64,000 nt of DNA from Thermocrinis minervae (GTDB taxonomy: Bacteria; Aquificota; Aquificia; Aquificales; Aquificaceae): assembly GCF_900142435.1 (NCBI RefSeq), contig NZ_LT670846.1:290486-354485 (forward strand), given 5' to 3'. Below the pieces are notes generated by a model. That model was not told the origin of the DNA, made no database searches, and saw only the letters and a list, made by a program, of their open reading frames with translations. Below are positions 44,935-51,342 of the stretch, piece after piece; positions within the stretch are counted from its first letter, which is position 1; each line of letters opens with the position of its first letter. The position numbers and the translations under genes were made by a program.

Positions 44935-45550
44935 CCTCTGCCAGCAGTATGTCCTCGGGATACGTTATCTTTAAGTTTAGTGGAGAGCCTTCTACCACAC
45001 CCACCCTGTAGCCGTACCTTTCAAGGAGTGCTGCATCATCTGTGGCGTAGTAACCTTCCTTTCTTGCCCTAAGATGACACTCAAGGAGTATATCCCTTCT
45101 AAAACCTTGGGGTGTTTGAGAGAGCCAAAGGTTGGACCTGTCCACAGTCTTTATCACCATGCTGTCGGCCACCTGCTTTACAGTATCCCTCACAGGTACT
45201 GCCGTTATTTTGCCCTCATAGTCTTCCAAAGAACATACTTTTAGGAAGAGCTCTAATTTCGCGAGAGGCCTTGCACAATCGTGGACTACTACTATCTCAC
45301 CCTTGGCCTGTAGTAAAGCTTTTAAAACAGAGTCCTGTCTTTCGTTCCCGCCTGGAACCTTTTTCACATCCTGTGGTACTTCTACCTTGTTTATGTCTTC
45401 CTCTGGTAAAACCAGGAGGATCTCCTCAAAATAACCATAGGTCCTATCCAAGGAATGCATGTAGAGAGGCTTTCCTAAAAGCTGTACAAACTGCTTCTTT
45501 CTACCAAAACGCCTACCAGACCCAGCAGCTAGGAGGACGAGGCTTATCAT
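44909..45550 (-). CDS. ispD: 2-C-methyl-D-erythritol 4-phosphate cytidylyltransferase
   Basis: Third enzyme of the methylerythritol phosphate pathway, making CDP-methylerythritol from CTP and MEP. The nucleotide-binding motif LLAAGSGRRFGRKKQFV, the VHDCARPL segment, AVPVRDTVKQV and the LWLSQTPQGFRRD motif near 140 identify it. It is 213 aa, slightly short. It overlaps the preceding gene by 4 bp. IspF is not adjacent, unlike in many bacteria. IspG of the same pathway opens this window. Confidence 0.94.
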   Translation of the reverse strand: MISLVLLAAGSGRRFGRKKQFVQLLGKPLYMHSLDRTYGYFEEILLVLPEEDINKVEVPQDVKKVPGGNERQDSVLKALLQAKGEIVVVHDCARPLAKLELFLKVCSLEDYEGKITAVPVRDTVKQVADSMVIKTVDRSNLWLSQTPQGFRRDILLECHLRARKEGYYATDDAALLERYGYRVGVVEGSPLNLKITYPEDILLAEAILSRGLI

Positions 45551-45876
45551 TCCTCCCTGAGGGTCTGTATCCTCCTTATGGCCTCTTCAAGTATCTCCTG
45601 GGAGAGGTCCATGTCTGTGGAGACCTTTCCTTCGTGGGTAATGAGAGCCGCAAGCTTGTAACCAAGCACTTCCTTCTCCAAAGACTCGCGGGTTATCCTG
45701 TCCAAGAGCTTTTTCTTATCCTCAGGCTCCAGGCTTTCAAGCTCAAACTCAGAGACTTCTATAGTATCCGGATCCTCGTCCTTTATGTAAAGGGCATAAA
45801 CAGGCAATGCCTCTTCAAGACCGAGCCTGTTAAAGAGATCCTCCACTCTTTGCCTTACTAAATGTCTTACGCTCAT
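45547..45876 (-). CDS. Uncharacterised acidic protein (109 aa)
   Basis: No family recognised with confidence. From the ATG at 45876 (an in-frame ATG at 45897 would add seven residues and run across the shared promoter) it gives 109 aa, acidic and helix-rich: SVRHLVRQRVEDLFNRLG, then DPDTIEVSEFELESLEPEDK and ILEEAIRRIQTL. There are no membrane segments or cysteines. It overlaps ispD by 4 bp and is divergent from dtd across a symmetrical AT-rich promoter. Confidence 0.75.
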   Translation of the reverse strand: MSVRHLVRQRVEDLFNRLGLEEALPVYALYIKDEDPDTIEVSEFELESLEPEDKKKLLDRITRESLEKEVLGYKLAALITHEGKVSTDMDLSQEILEEAIRRIQTLREE

Positions 45877-45882
45877 GCTATA

Positions 45883-45888
45883 TATAAT
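45883..45888 (+). promoter_or_regulatory. -10 box of dtd (leaderless type), within a symmetrical divergent promoter
   Basis: TATAAT 7 nt before the dtd ATG. The surrounding ATGCTATATATAATAGCAT is nearly palindromic, and its minus strand offers TATTAT for the divergent gene starting at 45876. No Shine-Dalgarno sequence precedes either ATG. Confidence 0.5.
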
Positions 45889-45895
45889 AGCATCC

Positions 45896-46339
45896 ATGCG
45901 AGCTGTTCTTCAGAGGGTTAAGGCTTCCTGGGTGCTAGTTGATGGGAAAGAGGTGGCACGTATAGGAGAGGGTCTTAACATACTCTTGGGTGTGGGTAAA
46001 GGAGACACCGATGAAGATGTGAAGAAACTCATCCAAAAGATTGTTAACCTGAGGATATTTGAGGATGAAAGAGGGAAGTTTCAATACTCTCTGCTTGACG
46101 TTAAAGGCTCTGCACTTGTGGTATCACAGTTTACCCTATACGCAGACGTAAAGAAGGGAAGAAGGCCGAGCTTTGAACAGGCAGAAGAACCAAACAGAGC
46201 CAAAGAGCTTTACGAGGAGTTCGTAAGGGAGCTTTCCAAGCTGGTAGAAGTGCAGACGGGTATATTCGGAGCCATGATGGAGGTACACATAGTCAACTGG
46301 GGTCCTGTGACTATAATCCTGGACAGCAAGGAACTTTAG
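45896..46339 (+). CDS. dtd: D-aminoacyl-tRNA deacylase
   Basis: Proofreading enzyme that hydrolyses D-aminoacyl-tRNAs, 147 aa from the ATG at 45896. The start MRAVLQRVKASWVLVDG, the catalytic-face motif SQFTLYADVKKGRRPSF and the Gly-cis-Pro motif NWGPVTIILDS are diagnostic. An in-frame upstream ATG (45875) would place the promoter inside the gene and is unlikely. It ends against the PLD-HerA gene with a 4-bp overlap. Confidence 0.95.
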   Translation: MRAVLQRVKASWVLVDGKEVARIGEGLNILLGVGKGDTDEDVKKLIQKIVNLRIFEDERGKFQYSLLDVKGSALVVSQFTLYADVKKGRRPSFEQAEEPNRAKELYEEFVRELSKLVEVQTGIFGAMMEVHIVNWGPVTIILDSKEL

Positions 46340-48180
46340 AGCTCTATCTCTACGAGCATACCAAAGGGTACGGCAAGGCCTGTGATGTAGGCAAGTCCTG
46401 GCCTTAGGGATGGTAGAAGTTTCAGCGTATCCATGTCTCTTTCACCAAAGAAGGGATACACAGCATCCAAATCGTTCTTCGTGTTTAACCTAAAGACTAC
46501 CTGTGTGTTTAGCTGGGATAGGACATACTTGCTTAGATTTGCAGGCCTTTGGGTTACGGCTATAAGGCCCAGGGATAGCTTCCTTCCCTCCATGGCTATC
46601 TTCTTCACCATGAGCTGAGCCAAGTTCTCTCTTCCGGCTGGGACTTCAAAGGCACCCTTCTCAGGTGCAAAGTTGTGAGATTCCTCTAGAACTACCAGAG
46701 TCCTTTCTGTACCCTCTAAAGCTCTTATGAAGATCTCTCTCAAGAGGAGTCCTACCACGTTTGTGCGTGTGGAGATGTCTGGCAGATGTTTCATGTCATA
46801 GATAACTATCTTCTCCTCGCATGACAAGCCTTCAAGCATTGCTTTTATGAGTGTGGGTTGGTCTGTTATGGCCCTTTCTCCTACCTCCCTTGAGAGGATG
46901 TTCAAAAAGTCTTCCACATCTTTCCTTATGGCCGGGTCCTTGGCTGAGCTTAGCATGATATCCTTGAAGGAAAGTTCCCTGTAGGGGAGGTATCTTAGAT
47001 CTGATTTCAGTAAGCTTCTCAGATTTGCATAAAAGTCTCGCTCTTCCGATGATCTTTCCTGTATGTCAAAGCCATACTGCTTTAGAAGATCCTTAATCTC
47101 ATCAGCGCTTATAAACATGAGACAGTAGGGGAGTTCTATGTGTTTTAGTGATATTCCAGATAGCTTTGGTGTATACTCTCCGTAAAGGTCAAAGAGGAAC
47201 ACCTTAGGGCCATCCTGCGGCATGTTTTCTAGGAGTCTCCTTACAAAGGTAGTCTTTCCTGAACCTGTAGTTCCTAGGACTGCCATATGCATGCTTAGTA
47301 CCTTCTCCAGGTCTACGTAGATGGGTCTTTGGGTACCAGCCAGCGTTCCCACCTTCACAGGTAACCCCATAGGGTATCCTGACATATTGAGGGTGAAGAG
47401 CCTTGAGTCTTCGTCGGTAAGCTTTAGAAGCTGGGTACCTGGTTCAAGGATGCGAAAGTTGGGGCTTAGGTATCCCTCCTTTTCTTCCTTCTTCTGCCTG
47501 TACTCAAACAAGACGGATACATCTGCAAACTTGGGTTTTCCCTTCTCCTGCCAGAGGGCAAAGAGGTAAGAAGTGAGCCAGTCCTTTTGATCTGTGGGGA
47601 GTTTCTCTAAATTTGAGGCTGGGGGTGTGTACACCCTGTTTACCTTCAGGAGTATAAAGCCATCTGGTGTTATAGCCTTTAGAAAGGTCTGCTCTTGTAT
47701 CTCTTCTAAGAGTAAAGCCTGCAGGTTTAGGAAACTTTCCAACTTTAGGACTACAGCCTTTGCATCTTGGTTAAGCTCGTAGGACTCTGCCTTTAGCTCC
47801 TCGTAGAGTTCTATAAGTTCCTTCACCTGCTCCGTCTGTACTACAGCTTCTATGTTTCCGTCTGTGGATAGTCCCCTGTAGGTTAGGTTTGCAGATCCTA
47901 CAAGGGCAAAGCTGTCATCTACGAGTATGAACTTGGCATGTAGCCGCGGGTTTAAGAATATCCTTCCCCCCTTTTTCCTTACTGCCTTGAAAACCCTCTG
48001 GTCTGTTATCTCTAGGTCCTTACCTTCTCCAGCTCTGACCACCAGCTCTATGCTTACCCCCTCCTCAACCCTGTCAAGCAGGGATTCCATGATCTCCCCT
48101 CTTGCCCATGCAGACACTATGCGTAGGCTAGACTTTGCTTTTCCAAAGGCTTCAAGAAGGAGAGTATATAAATCCTGCAT
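46336..48180 (-). CDS. PLD-family nuclease fused to a HerA-type DNA-translocating ATPase
   Basis: A 614-aa two-part protein. Residues 1-130 carry one phospholipase-D-type active site (HAKFILVD at 81-88, then GSANLT at 95-100), as in PLD nucleases. A linker and a beta-rich region at about 170-290, resembling a HAS barrel, follow. Then comes a HerA/FtsK-like ATPase with Walker A GTTGSGKT (303-310), DLYGEY, Walker B LVVLEESHNFAPE (495-507), Arg533 in AMEGRK and TQRPANLS. HerA normally works with the NurA nuclease on DNA ends; here the nuclease is in cis. It fits an end-processing or phage-defence role, but this is inference. A TAAAAT box lies 6 nt before its ATG. Confidence 0.9.
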   Translation of the reverse strand: MQDLYTLLLEAFGKAKSSLRIVSAWARGEIMESLLDRVEEGVSIELVVRAGEGKDLEITDQRVFKAVRKKGGRIFLNPRLHAKFILVDDSFALVGSANLTYRGLSTDGNIEAVVQTEQVKELIELYEELKAESYELNQDAKAVVLKLESFLNLQALLLEEIQEQTFLKAITPDGFILLKVNRVYTPPASNLEKLPTDQKDWLTSYLFALWQEKGKPKFADVSVLFEYRQKKEEKEGYLSPNFRILEPGTQLLKLTDEDSRLFTLNMSGYPMGLPVKVGTLAGTQRPIYVDLEKVLSMHMAVLGTTGSGKTTFVRRLLENMPQDGPKVFLFDLYGEYTPKLSGISLKHIELPYCLMFISADEIKDLLKQYGFDIQERSSEERDFYANLRSLLKSDLRYLPYRELSFKDIMLSSAKDPAIRKDVEDFLNILSREVGERAITDQPTLIKAMLEGLSCEEKIVIYDMKHLPDISTRTNVVGLLLREIFIRALEGTERTLVVLEESHNFAPEKGAFEVPAGRENLAQLMVKKIAMEGRKLSLGLIAVTQRPANLSKYVLSQLNTQVVFRLNTKNDLDAVYPFFGERDMDTLKLLPSLRPGLAYITGLAVPFGMLVEIEL

Positions 48181-48195
48181 GGGAATATTTTAAGG

Positions 48196-48270
48196 TGGTG
48201 GGCGGTGGCGGAATCGAACCGCCGACCTCCATCTTGTGAGGATGGCGCTCTCCCTCTGAGCTAACCGCCC
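48196..48270 (-). tRNA. tRNA-Val (anticodon CAC)
   Basis: On the minus strand the 5' acceptor arm GGGCGGT pairs with ACCGCCC and is followed by encoded ACCA. The D arm contains AGCTC, the anticodon loop CTCACAA gives CAC, and the T loop is TTCGATT with GGCGG/CCGCC stem. The 72-nt body plus CCA is normal. It reads the GUG codon. A TATAAT on the minus strand at 48281-48286 is a plausible -10. Confidence 0.97.
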
Positions 48271-48325: not shown

Positions 48326-48410
48326 AATAGCTGTAAAGAAGAGGAGGTGATAAACTCCCTCCCCCTCCCTCCCCTAATTTGTTTGCCCCACCGCCAGGTG
48401 GGGCCTTTCT
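48326..48410 (+). ncRNA. Candidate small RNA or sfsA leader with C-rich anti-Shine-Dalgarno stretch
   Basis: Between the strong promoter and sfsA lies an untranslated stretch of about 85 nt. It holds a purine block AAGAAGAGGAGGTGATAAA, a block made almost only of C and T (CTCCCTCCCCCTCCCTCCCC) and a GC hairpin near the end. The CT block could pair with its own GGAGG or with ribosome sites of other mRNAs. A stand-alone sRNA or a leader that attenuates sfsA are the alternatives. A 22-codon frame from the GTG at 48346 exists but looks unlikely to be a real peptide. Confidence 0.4.
48385..48410 (+). terminator. Hairpin with short T-rich tail before sfsA
   Basis: GCCCCACC, loop GCCA, GGTGGGGC (an 8-bp perfect stem), then CTTTCT. 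It ends 5 bp before the sfsA ATG, so it acts either as an intrinsic terminator or attenuator, or as a structure hiding the sfsA start. The T-run is weak. Confidence 0.6.
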
Positions 48411-48414
48411 AAAC

Positions 48415-49059
48415 ATGAAGTTCCCACCTTTAAAAGAGGCTATCTTCTTACAGAGGGAAAACAGGTTTGTAGGAAAGGTTCTTCTGAATAGGGAGGAGGT
48501 AAGGGCCTACATAAGGAACACAGGAAGGCTTACCGAACTCCTCAGAAGAGGAAACAAAGTATACCTAAAGGAGAAGCATCAGGGGAAGTACCCTTACGAG
48601 ATACTTTTGGTAGATTACATGGGCACTCTTGTCTGTATAGACTCTCATATAGCTCCAAAGATCTATGCCGAAAGCTTGATGCCTAAAAACGTAGTTTTCG
48701 AGCCAAAGGTCAACGCTTCCAGGTTTGACCTCCTGGTGGATGACCTTCTTATAGAGGTAAAGTCTGTGAACTTAGTGGTAAACGGTGTGGCGCTTTTCCC
48801 AGATGCTCCAACAAAGAGAGGAGCCAGGCACCTAAGAGAGCTGGCATACCTAATAGATAGTCGTCCTGCCTGTGTGGTGTTCATAGTACAGAGGGAGGAT
48901 GCCCTTGCCTTTGCACCCAACTGTTCTGTAGACCCTGAATTTTGCAAGGCCTTTGAGGAGTTTCGTAGAAAAGGTGGCATGGTGAAAGCTTACAGGTGTA
49001 GCGTGAGCATTGAAGGTATAAGCCTAAAAGATGAGATTATAGTATTAGGAGGGTCTTAG
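48415..49059 (+). CDS. sfsA: SfsA-family protein (sugar fermentation stimulation homologue)
   Basis: A 214-aa protein from the ATG at 48415; an upstream in-frame start would cut through the hairpin. The N-terminal OB-like part (RENRFVGKVLLNREEVRAYI, then HIRNTGR-like YIRNTGRLTELL) and the nuclease-like C-terminal part (SRFDLLVDDLLIEVKSVNLV, PDAPTKRGARHL) follow the SfsA family. SfsA is reported to bind DNA and has a PD-(D/E)xK-like core; its exact role is unclear. No ribosome site precedes the ATG except Gs in the hairpin. pncA follows after 1 bp. Confidence 0.92.
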   Translation: MKFPPLKEAIFLQRENRFVGKVLLNREEVRAYIRNTGRLTELLRRGNKVYLKEKHQGKYPYEILLVDYMGTLVCIDSHIAPKIYAESLMPKNVVFEPKVNASRFDLLVDDLLIEVKSVNLVVNGVALFPDAPTKRGARHLRELAYLIDSRPACVVFIVQREDALAFAPNCSVDPEFCKAFEEFRRKGGMVKAYRCSVSIEGISLKDEIIVLGGS

Positions 49060-49060
49060 T

Positions 49061-49648
49061 ATGCGGATAAGGCTTTCAAGTAGGGATGCTCTCATAGTAG
49101 TAGACATGCAGGTGGACTTTATGCCGGGTGGCGCCCTTCCTGTACCTGAAGGTGATAAGATAGTCCCAAGGCTCAACGAATACATAAAGGCTTTTTCTTC
49201 TATGGGCCTGCCTGTGTTCTTCACTAGAGACTGGCATCCAGAGGACCATATATCCTTCAAAGGTCATGGTGGTGTATGGCCTCCTCACTGCGTCCAAGAC
49301 ACACCGGGGGCCCAGTTTCATCCCGACCTATTCATACCCCTTGATAACAAGTTCATAGTATCCAAAGGAACAAGTAGGGATTTTGATGCCTATTCTGGCT
49401 TTCAGGGAACAGTGCTAGACCAGCTCTTAAGAGAGAGAGGAGTAAAAAGGATATTCGTCGGAGGTGTTGCTACAGACTACTGCGTGAAGAACACAGTCAT
49501 AGGAGGCCTTAACCTTGGTTACACTACTTTCCTACTTTTGGATGCCATAAAAGGAGTTGATGTAAACCCCGGAGACTCAGAGAAGGCCATCCAGGAGATG
49601 TTAGAACGTGGTGCCATAGGTATAACCCTTGAAGAGGTTGAACTATGA
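49061..49648 (+). CDS. pncA: Nicotinamidase
   Basis: Cysteine hydrolase of NAD salvage, nicotinamide to nicotinate, 195 aa. Catalytic Asp lies in IVVDMQVDF, Lys in NKFIVSKGT and Cys in GVATDYCVKNT. The metal-site pattern DWHPEDHISF and the preceding Asp are conserved, which separates it from other isochorismatase-like proteins. Its ATG is 2 nt past the sfsA stop, and its end overlaps the ligase gene by 4 bp. Confidence 0.92.
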   Translation: MRIRLSSRDALIVVDMQVDFMPGGALPVPEGDKIVPRLNEYIKAFSSMGLPVFFTRDWHPEDHISFKGHGGVWPPHCVQDTPGAQFHPDLFIPLDNKFIVSKGTSRDFDAYSGFQGTVLDQLLRERGVKRIFVGGVATDYCVKNTVIGGLNLGYTTFLLLDAIKGVDVNPGDSEKAIQEMLERGAIGITLEEVEL

Positions 49649-51342
49649 AGTTTTCCCAGCTTGCAGATTACTTTGAAAGGCTTGAAAGGATAACGAGCAG
49701 GATAGAGCTGAGTGAGGTCCTAGCTGAAGTTTTGAAAAACTGCCTTCCCGAGGAGGTGGATAAAGTCATATACCTCCTCATGGGCGAGATAGCACCCCCG
49801 TATAGGGGTTTAGAGTTTGGTCTCTCGGAAAAGTTAACAGCTGAAGCCACATCAAAGGCCTATGGTGTAAAGATATCTCAAGTAAACGACCTTTATAAGA
49901 AACTTGGAGACCTTGGAGAGGTAGCCCTTCACTTAAACCAGAGGGAAGGGAAAGGCTTAGACGTAGTACAGGTCTACCAGGAACTTTACCAGGTAGCTAG
50001 CGCAAAGGGTACCTGGGAGAAGGTAATGCGACTAGTAAATCTTCTCAGAGGTCTTAGCGGCAAAGAGTCTAAGTACGTTGTAAGGATAGTTATAGGGAGG
50101 CTCAGACTCGGTATAGGAGAGGCAACTCTCATAGAGGCTTTAGCTTTAGCCTTCGGTAGAAGAAGCCTAAAGGAGCTGATAGAGAGGGCCTACAACCTGT
50201 GTTCGGATTTAGGTCTTGTGGCCAGCACCCTCTTTAAAGAGGGTGTGCAATCTCTAGAGTCCTTCAAGATACAGGTAGGCTATCCTATAAGGCCTGCCTT
50301 AGCGGAGAGGGTATCCTCTCCTTCGGAGATAATAAGCAGACTGGGTAGGTGTGCCCTGGAGGTAAAGTACGATGGGTTTAGACTTCAGATCCACAAAAAG
50401 GGCAAAGAAGTAGAGATATACTCCAGGAATTTGGAAAGGATGACTCAGATGTTCCCCGATGTGGTGTCTGCAGTACTTGAGTTACCCTTTGAAGAACTCA
50501 TATTTGAGGGTGAGGCCATAGCTTACAACGAAAGCACAGGAGAGTTCTACCCTTTCCAGATAACCATACAGAGGAAAAGAAAGTACGACGTGCACAAGTA
50601 CTCAGAGGAATATCCTCTGAAGCTTTTTGCCTTTGACCTTCTTTACTTAGAAGGTGAAGATTATACGGTAAAACCTTTCGTGGAAAGGAGAAAAAGGCTT
50701 GAAGGAGTGGTAATCGGCAACAGCTTGATAGAGCCCTCTGAGATGATCATAGCCGAGGAAGTGAAACAAGTAGAAGAGTTCTTTGAGAAGGCCATTGAAA
50801 GGGGTCTTGAAGGTATAATGGCCAAAAGACTTGACGCACCCTACACAGCAGGTTCAAGAAACTTCAACTGGATAAAGCTAAAGAGAAGCTACAAGGGACA
50901 GCTCTCGGACAGCCTGGACCTTGTGATAGTGGGTTACTTTTACGGAAGAGGAAACCGTGCCAAGCTGGGTATAGGAGCTGTTCTCGCGGCAGTATACGAT
51001 AGAGACTCTGACACTTTCAAGACTGTGGCCAAGGTAGGCTCCGGCTTTACGGAAGAAGAGTGGATAAAGTTAAAGCATATGCTGGATGAAATAAAGCTTG
51101 AAAGAAAACATCCACGGGTGGAGTCTACCATAGAGCCGGATGTGTGGACAGAGCCACGTTACGTCATAACTGTCCTAGCCGATGAGATAACCATATCACC
51201 CATACACACAGCAGGATACGCCCTTAGGTTCCCGAGAGCTGTAGGCTTTATCAGGGCTGACAAGAACCCTGAGGATGCTACGGACCTTTCGGAGATACTA
51301 AGACTCTATGAGATACAAAGGAAGGTTACCGTTGGTGAATAA
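49645..51342 (+). CDS. ATP-dependent DNA ligase (archaeal-type)
   Basis: A 565-aa ligase. An N-terminal DNA-binding domain of about 200 residues (KYVVRIVIGRLRLGIGEATL is typical) precedes the nucleotidyltransferase core. Motif I EVKYDGFR carries the adenylated Lys241. Further motifs are EAIAYN, the FDLLY strand, EGIMAKRLDAPY and WIKLKRSY, with an OB domain at the end. Domain order and length match archaeal Lig1-type enzymes rather than the short bacterial LigC/D forms. Bacteria also carry NAD-dependent LigA for replication, so a repair role is likely. It lies just before the SRP RNA. Confidence 0.94.
   Translation: MKFSQLADYFERLERITSRIELSEVLAEVLKNCLPEEVDKVIYLLMGEIAPPYRGLEFGLSEKLTAEATSKAYGVKISQVNDLYKKLGDLGEVALHLNQREGKGLDVVQVYQELYQVASAKGTWEKVMRLVNLLRGLSGKESKYVVRIVIGRLRLGIGEATLIEALALAFGRRSLKELIERAYNLCSDLGLVASTLFKEGVQSLESFKIQVGYPIRPALAERVSSPSEIISRLGRCALEVKYDGFRLQIHKKGKEVEIYSRNLERMTQMFPDVVSAVLELPFEELIFEGEAIAYNESTGEFYPFQITIQRKRKYDVHKYSEEYPLKLFAFDLLYLEGEDYTVKPFVERRKRLEGVVIGNSLIEPSEMIIAEEVKQVEEFFEKAIERGLEGIMAKRLDAPYTAGSRNFNWIKLKRSYKGQLSDSLDLVIVGYFYGRGNRAKLGIGAVLAAVYDRDSDTFKTVAKVGSGFTEEEWIKLKHMLDEIKLERKHPRVESTIEPDVWTEPRYVITVLADEITISPIHTAGYALRFPRAVGFIRADKNPEDATDLSEILRLYEIQRKVTVGE

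Follow-up and report, generated by a model that had tools for sequence, protein, structure and literature searches.

The 64,000-nucleotide stretch of Thermocrinis minervae DNA analyzed here (the window) contains a stand-alone gene that joins a PLD-type nuclease domain, a HAS-barrel, and a HerA-type motor, in that order, in one polypeptide. We refer to this gene and its product as PLD-HerA. Re-reading the window sequence returned the open reading frame exactly as the initial annotation had described it. The gene, its domains and motifs, and the features adjoining it are as follows, in window coordinates.

46336..48180, (-): PLD-HerA gene, intact open reading frame with an ATG start, 614 amino acids; Pfam and PDB matches
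47806..48159, (-): PLD nuclease domain, residues 8-125, one HKD motif; Pfam PLDc_2, E 9.8e-15
47887..47940, (-): HKD active-site segment H81-A-K83 ... D88 ... GS96-A-N98, invariant in 49 homologs and in an overlapping set of 41
47311..47766, (-): HAS-barrel, residues about 139-290; the hhalign match to canonical HerA starts at residue 139
46339..47310, (-): HerA RecA-like motor core and C terminus, residues 291-614; Pfam, PDB, Foldseek, hhalign
47251..47274, (-): Walker A GTTGSGKT, residues 303-310; alignment of 49 homologs
46660..46698, (-): Walker B segment LVVLEESHNFAPE, residues 495-507; E499 and E500 invariant
46543..46590, (-): EGRK ... TQRP, motor motifs common to HerA, residues 531-546; conserved
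48196..48270, (-): tRNA-Val(CAC), 15 nt upstream of the PLD-HerA start
45875..46339, (+): dtd (D-Tyr-tRNA deacylase), convergent, with a 4-nt overlap with the PLD-HerA stop; context only

A TATAAT sits just 5' of the tRNA gene, so PLD-HerA may be transcribed through tRNA-Val. The flanks of PLD-HerA in the window encode IspD, SfsA, an isochorismatase-like protein, and an ATP-dependent DNA ligase, as identified by Pfam. The ligase (49645-51342), near SfsA (48379-49059), is of the archaeal/eukaryotic-like three-domain type although the genome is bacterial. A 116-aa open reading frame between ispD and dtd (45547-45897, minus strand) matches no Pfam family above the cutoff.

Pfam also matched the PLD active-site motif as such (E 7.3e-7). 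The HxKx4D and the GSxN of PLD superfamily nucleases are both present, with only one HKD motif per chain, and profile matches of the domain in the PDB include NucT, Nuc, and mitochondrial cardiolipin hydrolase, as well as phospholipases; the nucleases NucT and Nuc are among its closest single-domain PLD relatives with a solved structure. In the motor, Pfam places the DUF87/HerA central domain at residues 275-483 (E 6.2e-27), and the PDB sequence matches are HerA chains, which cover the C-terminal part as well as the part with Walker A. The HAS-barrel went undetected in the Pfam search of PLD-HerA and was overlooked in the initial annotation. We add it here from an hhalign comparison in which residues 139-614 align with the HAS-barrel and core of canonical HerA (probability 100, E 5.1e-58); the region is also beta-rich in the AlphaFold2 model. 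This model, of a single chain only, has a pLDDT of 88.7 and a pTM of 0.83, and its best Foldseek matches in the PDB are the HerA chain of T. kodakarensis HerA-NurA (top, E 2.5e-29), SIR2-HerA, and S. solfataricus HerA. The open reading frame, Pfam, PDB, hhalign, and AlphaFold2 thus confirm what had been read from the sequence, namely, that one stand-alone gene encodes a PLD nuclease and a complete HerA ATPase as a single fused protein.

The single PLD active site (HxK...D...GSxN) claimed for the protein likewise holds. Across 49 aligned homologs, little or no variation occurs in H81, K83, D88, S96, N98, GTTGSGK, D331-GEY, E499-E500, EGRK, and QRP, and 49/49 members keep the PLD and Walker catalytic residues. 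The same residues and motifs are conserved in a second set of 41 homologs from named contigs, which overlaps the first and derives partly from the same genomes. Given this conservation of the HKD and key ATPase residues, intact members are very likely active.

PLD-HerA occurs in about 78 of 136 Aquificota genomes, one of these holding a remnant (G078); the initial match count of 83 included five genomes with canonical HerA only, which were removed. Relatives in named contigs, recovered with an alignment query (a single-protein query gave no match), come from Aquificota and from MAGs assigned to WOR-3, Pyrinomonadaceae, Thermotogota, and Archaeoglobaceae. Many of the genomes are MAGs, so errors of assembly or binning may account for some absences of PLD-HerA and for the archaeal assignment. 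The Archaeoglobaceae copy (L121:867-5184), on a 6.3-kb contig, may be such a binning error; it is followed by an overlapping 806-aa gene of no assigned family and then by a Cas4-like gene. Viral contigs and phage records gave only HerA-core or terminase-like matches and no PLD-HerA.

In a tree with other HerA proteins, built by a quick method with SH-aLRT support only, PLD-HerA forms a single clade on a long, supported stem, separate from the canonical, archaeal, and antiphage forms, which suggests one ancient fusion event. Two subfamilies are distinguished: A consists of separate clades for f2 and f1, and B contains members of f1 and f5, with the f5 clade distinct. Only one clear transfer, G064, appears in subfamily A, and inheritance of PLD-HerA seems largely vertical, mainly so in that subfamily. 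Roughly a quarter of well-assembled Aquificaceae genomes have no PLD-HerA. G048 shows a clean absence between coaE and the dtd region; the gene is broken in G078 and split in G133. G038, considered as a further loss, proved uninformative, as coaE sits at a contig end there. A Hydrogenothermaceae MAG (L127:8007-9774) carries PLD-HerA in three reading frames, probably the decaying copy seen in G078.

PLD-HerA shares its HAS-barrel and RecA-like motor with HerA-NurA of archaea, Deinococcus, and Thermus, whereas the nuclease of the latter is a separate NurA dimer and that of PLD-HerA is a fused PLD domain within a HerA clade of its own. The HAS-barrels of D. radiodurans HerA are the docking site of NurA (PMC9960219), and DUF4297 binds its antiphage HerA at the HAS domain (PMC11291478). 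The domain order suggests that PLD would lie at or near this partner-docking HAS face, and since it would sit where NurA and DUF4297 dock on HerA rings, we read PLD-HerA as a one-polypeptide translocase-nuclease. SIR2-HerA (Nezha) and DUF4297-HerA resemble it as HerA rings with a partner effector; PLD-HerA differs from them in being one polypeptide, in its effector fold, in having no two-gene operon, and in its mostly non-defense neighborhoods. No SIR2 or DUF4297 partner gene was present among the window neighbors and the 25 most frequent neighbor families (147 proteins, 26 loci). Membership in the antiphage HerA equivalogs was rejected on NCBIfam scores and gene context, with PLD-HerA scoring 66-106 bits, below the curated cutoffs of 800-970 for NF040819/NF040937 (HerA equivalog) and NF042943/NF042944 (antiphage HerA).

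The nuclease half has its own precedents. NucT, Nuc, and other single-HKD PLD nucleases (profile matches PDB 6ehi and 1byr) also have one HKD per chain, but their PLD domain is not fused to a translocase. Since single-HKD enzymes, Nuc and NucT among them, work as dimers, the six PLD nucleases per ring proposed in the initial annotation would be better put as three dimers. An HKD nuclease fused to an SF2 helicase or BrxL is found in defense systems (PMC10853773, PMC12839542). Such proteins, PbeA (HKD-SF2 helicase, BREX-related type 2) and BrxL-HKD, resemble PLD-HerA in combining an HKD nuclease with an ATP-driven DNA motor in one chain; their motors are an SF2 helicase or BrxL encoded in multigene defense operons, whereas PLD-HerA has a HerA motor and stands alone. 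DrmC models detect its PLD domain at 47 bits against a cutoff of 133, and no other DISARM gene (drmA, drmB, or methylase) was found beside the window PLD-HerA; DISARM membership was therefore rejected.

We assign a probability of roughly 0.5 to the reading that PLD-HerA is a self-contained HerA-type DNA translocase-nuclease whose likeliest role is DNA-end processing or degradation in Aquificota chromosome maintenance. A hexameric ring of HAS-barrels and RecA-like cores would pump double-stranded DNA; on its HAS face, the single-HKD PLD domains would pair as dimers to complete two-HKD active sites, and these dimers would cut DNA as it emerges from the pore. A ring-forming motor-nuclease suited to DNA-end processing, as originally suggested, is thus plausible, with the residues intact in all relatives, and both the ring and its DNA substrate are predicted. 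The lineage has no detectable RecB/AddAB-type nucleases, and PLD-HerA would work there alongside SbcCD, RecJ, and NurA.

Among 64 Aquificaceae genomes, PDDEXK_1 nucleases (RecB/AddAB type) have weak matches in 2, SbcD is found in 59, and a NurA-like nuclease with conserved D-E-D residues is found in 58, the window genome included. The NurA count comes from a family-specific profile, as the standard Pfam NurA misses several divergent Aquificaceae NurA proteins. The window genome has a RecJ match below the curated cutoff. No canonical HerA was found in Aquificaceae genomes; f2 and f5 have both canonical HerA and NurA. The initial annotation had set the PLD domain in the place of NurA; it is indeed fused to HerA, but a NurA-like nuclease is present in nearly all Aquificaceae, which makes substitution too simple a description. 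A co-loss of NurA and PLD-HerA was considered and dropped once the family-specific profile showed NurA to be near universal in the family. The divergent NurA-like gene of the window genome (G000:C1:471981-472916; L166:6979-7920) adjoins obgE, encodes conserved D54, E145, and D163, and is not adjacent to PLD-HerA.

Gene order elsewhere brings PLD-HerA closer to end-processing genes. The order in G079 is PLD-HerA, obgE, nurA, comEA; PLD-HerA and nurA lie within about 5 kb in its sister f2 genus and 7 kb apart in L109. On two WOR-3 MAG contigs (L115:5812-9388 and L135:6310-9791), recJ is directly upstream of PLD-HerA, at 37 bp, with the same RecJ in both, and RecJ binds D. radiodurans HerA (PMC4663267). 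The nurA links in two sister genera and the recJ link in WOR-3 point toward DNA-end processing. NurA is kept in Aquificaceae genomes without any PLD-HerA (e.g., G030, G033, and G060), so the two are not obligate partners and the NurA link is suggestive.

A nuclease directed at invaders, in which the same machine would, as DUF4297-HerA or Nezha does, capture and degrade the DNA of phages or plasmids, is possible but doubtful, and we favor DNA-end processing in genome maintenance over defense. Support comes from two Desulfurobacteriaceae genomes in which the 3' end of a type III-A csm operon and PLD-HerA overlap, through a TGATG stop/start overlap with csm5 in one (L063:788-8762, G135) and an overlap of about 20 nt with cas6 in the other (L068:3-9079, G131). 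These were the only clear defense hits when PADLOC was run on the 147 neighbor proteins from 26 loci, and the proposed restriction of invading DNA therefore receives little support. Csm5 occurs in 9 of 22 f5 genomes and is adjacent to PLD-HerA in just these two; G133, which shares its genus, locus, and downstream genes with G135, has no csm operon, and its PLD-HerA is split. No CRISPR array was found beside the csm loci within the stretches read. A comparable arrangement is the nurA-csm6-herA cluster of Thermoproteales, which places HerA-NurA near type III CRISPR (PMC3396285); as at the csm loci, a HerA-class motor is encoded near type III CRISPR genes, but there nurA and herA are separate. 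PLD-HerA usually lies among housekeeping genes, for example, coaE, dtd, obgE, and secF. The initial annotation had recommended a survey of homologous neighborhoods for defense islands and regarded non-defense contexts with mutated motifs as evidence against its proposal: the contexts are mostly non-defense, but no intact member has a mutated motif. Defense would also fit the patchy loss of PLD-HerA, the paralogy of subfamily B, and the scatter of this subfamily among the WOR-3, Pyrinomonadaceae, Thermotogota, and Archaeoglobaceae MAGs. An interrupted subfamily B copy lies on Aquifex aeolicus VF5 plasmid ece1 (NC_001880.1; L210:6001-7930), where it is annotated as two separate proteins labeled only DUF87 or ATP-binding protein, with toxin-antitoxin-like genes nearby (PIN, Fic, and AbiEii). 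PADLOC HerA and DrmC models give scores on the window protein, and the authors of the T. kodakarensis HerA-NurA study now favor antiviral degradation (PMC12977600). Against this stand the mainly vertical descent of subfamily A and the position of PLD-HerA in the tree, where it does not nest with antiphage HerA examples. Subfamily B may nevertheless serve defense in places.

Two further explanations concern the partner and the chemistry. NurA might dock on PLD-HerA as its motor in Aquificaceae, giving one complex with two nucleases; the retained HAS-barrel, the presence of NurA without canonical HerA in this family, and the proximity of the two genes noted above speak for such a complex. We nonetheless consider it unlikely, given that NurA persists where PLD-HerA is absent, that the gene clusters cover two sister genera and probably reflect one event, and that a PLD domain on the N-terminal side of the HAS-barrel could block docking. 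It is very improbable that the PLD domain is not a nuclease but a module for DNA binding or a lipid-related function. The PLD superfamily does include lipid enzymes and noncatalytic members, and phospholipases are among the PDB profile matches, but none of the HKD residues varies, the layout with one HKD agrees with that of NucT and Nuc, and a domain attached to a DNA motor more plausibly has nucleic acid as its substrate.

The preferred reading, DNA-end processing in chromosome maintenance, has evidence against it as well. PLD-HerA is dispensable, being absent, broken, or split in some genomes, unlike core repair genes; moreover, f2 and f5 have canonical HerA and NurA of their own, NurA persists without PLD-HerA, no conserved operon partner was found across Aquificota, and a type III-A operon or a plasmid harbors some of the copies. 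A stronger version, in which PLD-HerA is a NurA-independent, main end-processing motor-nuclease of Aquificaceae and a sub-branch was recruited into type III-A CRISPR operons, seems rather unlikely to us.

The HerA translocase-nuclease design is known; what is new is the effector, fused as a PLD domain in one chain. No description of this fusion was found in the literature searched, a coverage outside which Iyer et al. 2004, the likeliest place for one, falls. The finding raises the question of how Aquificaceae, apparently without RecB/AddAB-type nucleases and canonical HerA, process DNA ends. HerA motors usually recruit a separate effector to the HAS face, and PLD-HerA represents the same design principle in a single chain, offering a simple, thermostable one-gene system in which to study the control of a nuclease by a ring translocase.
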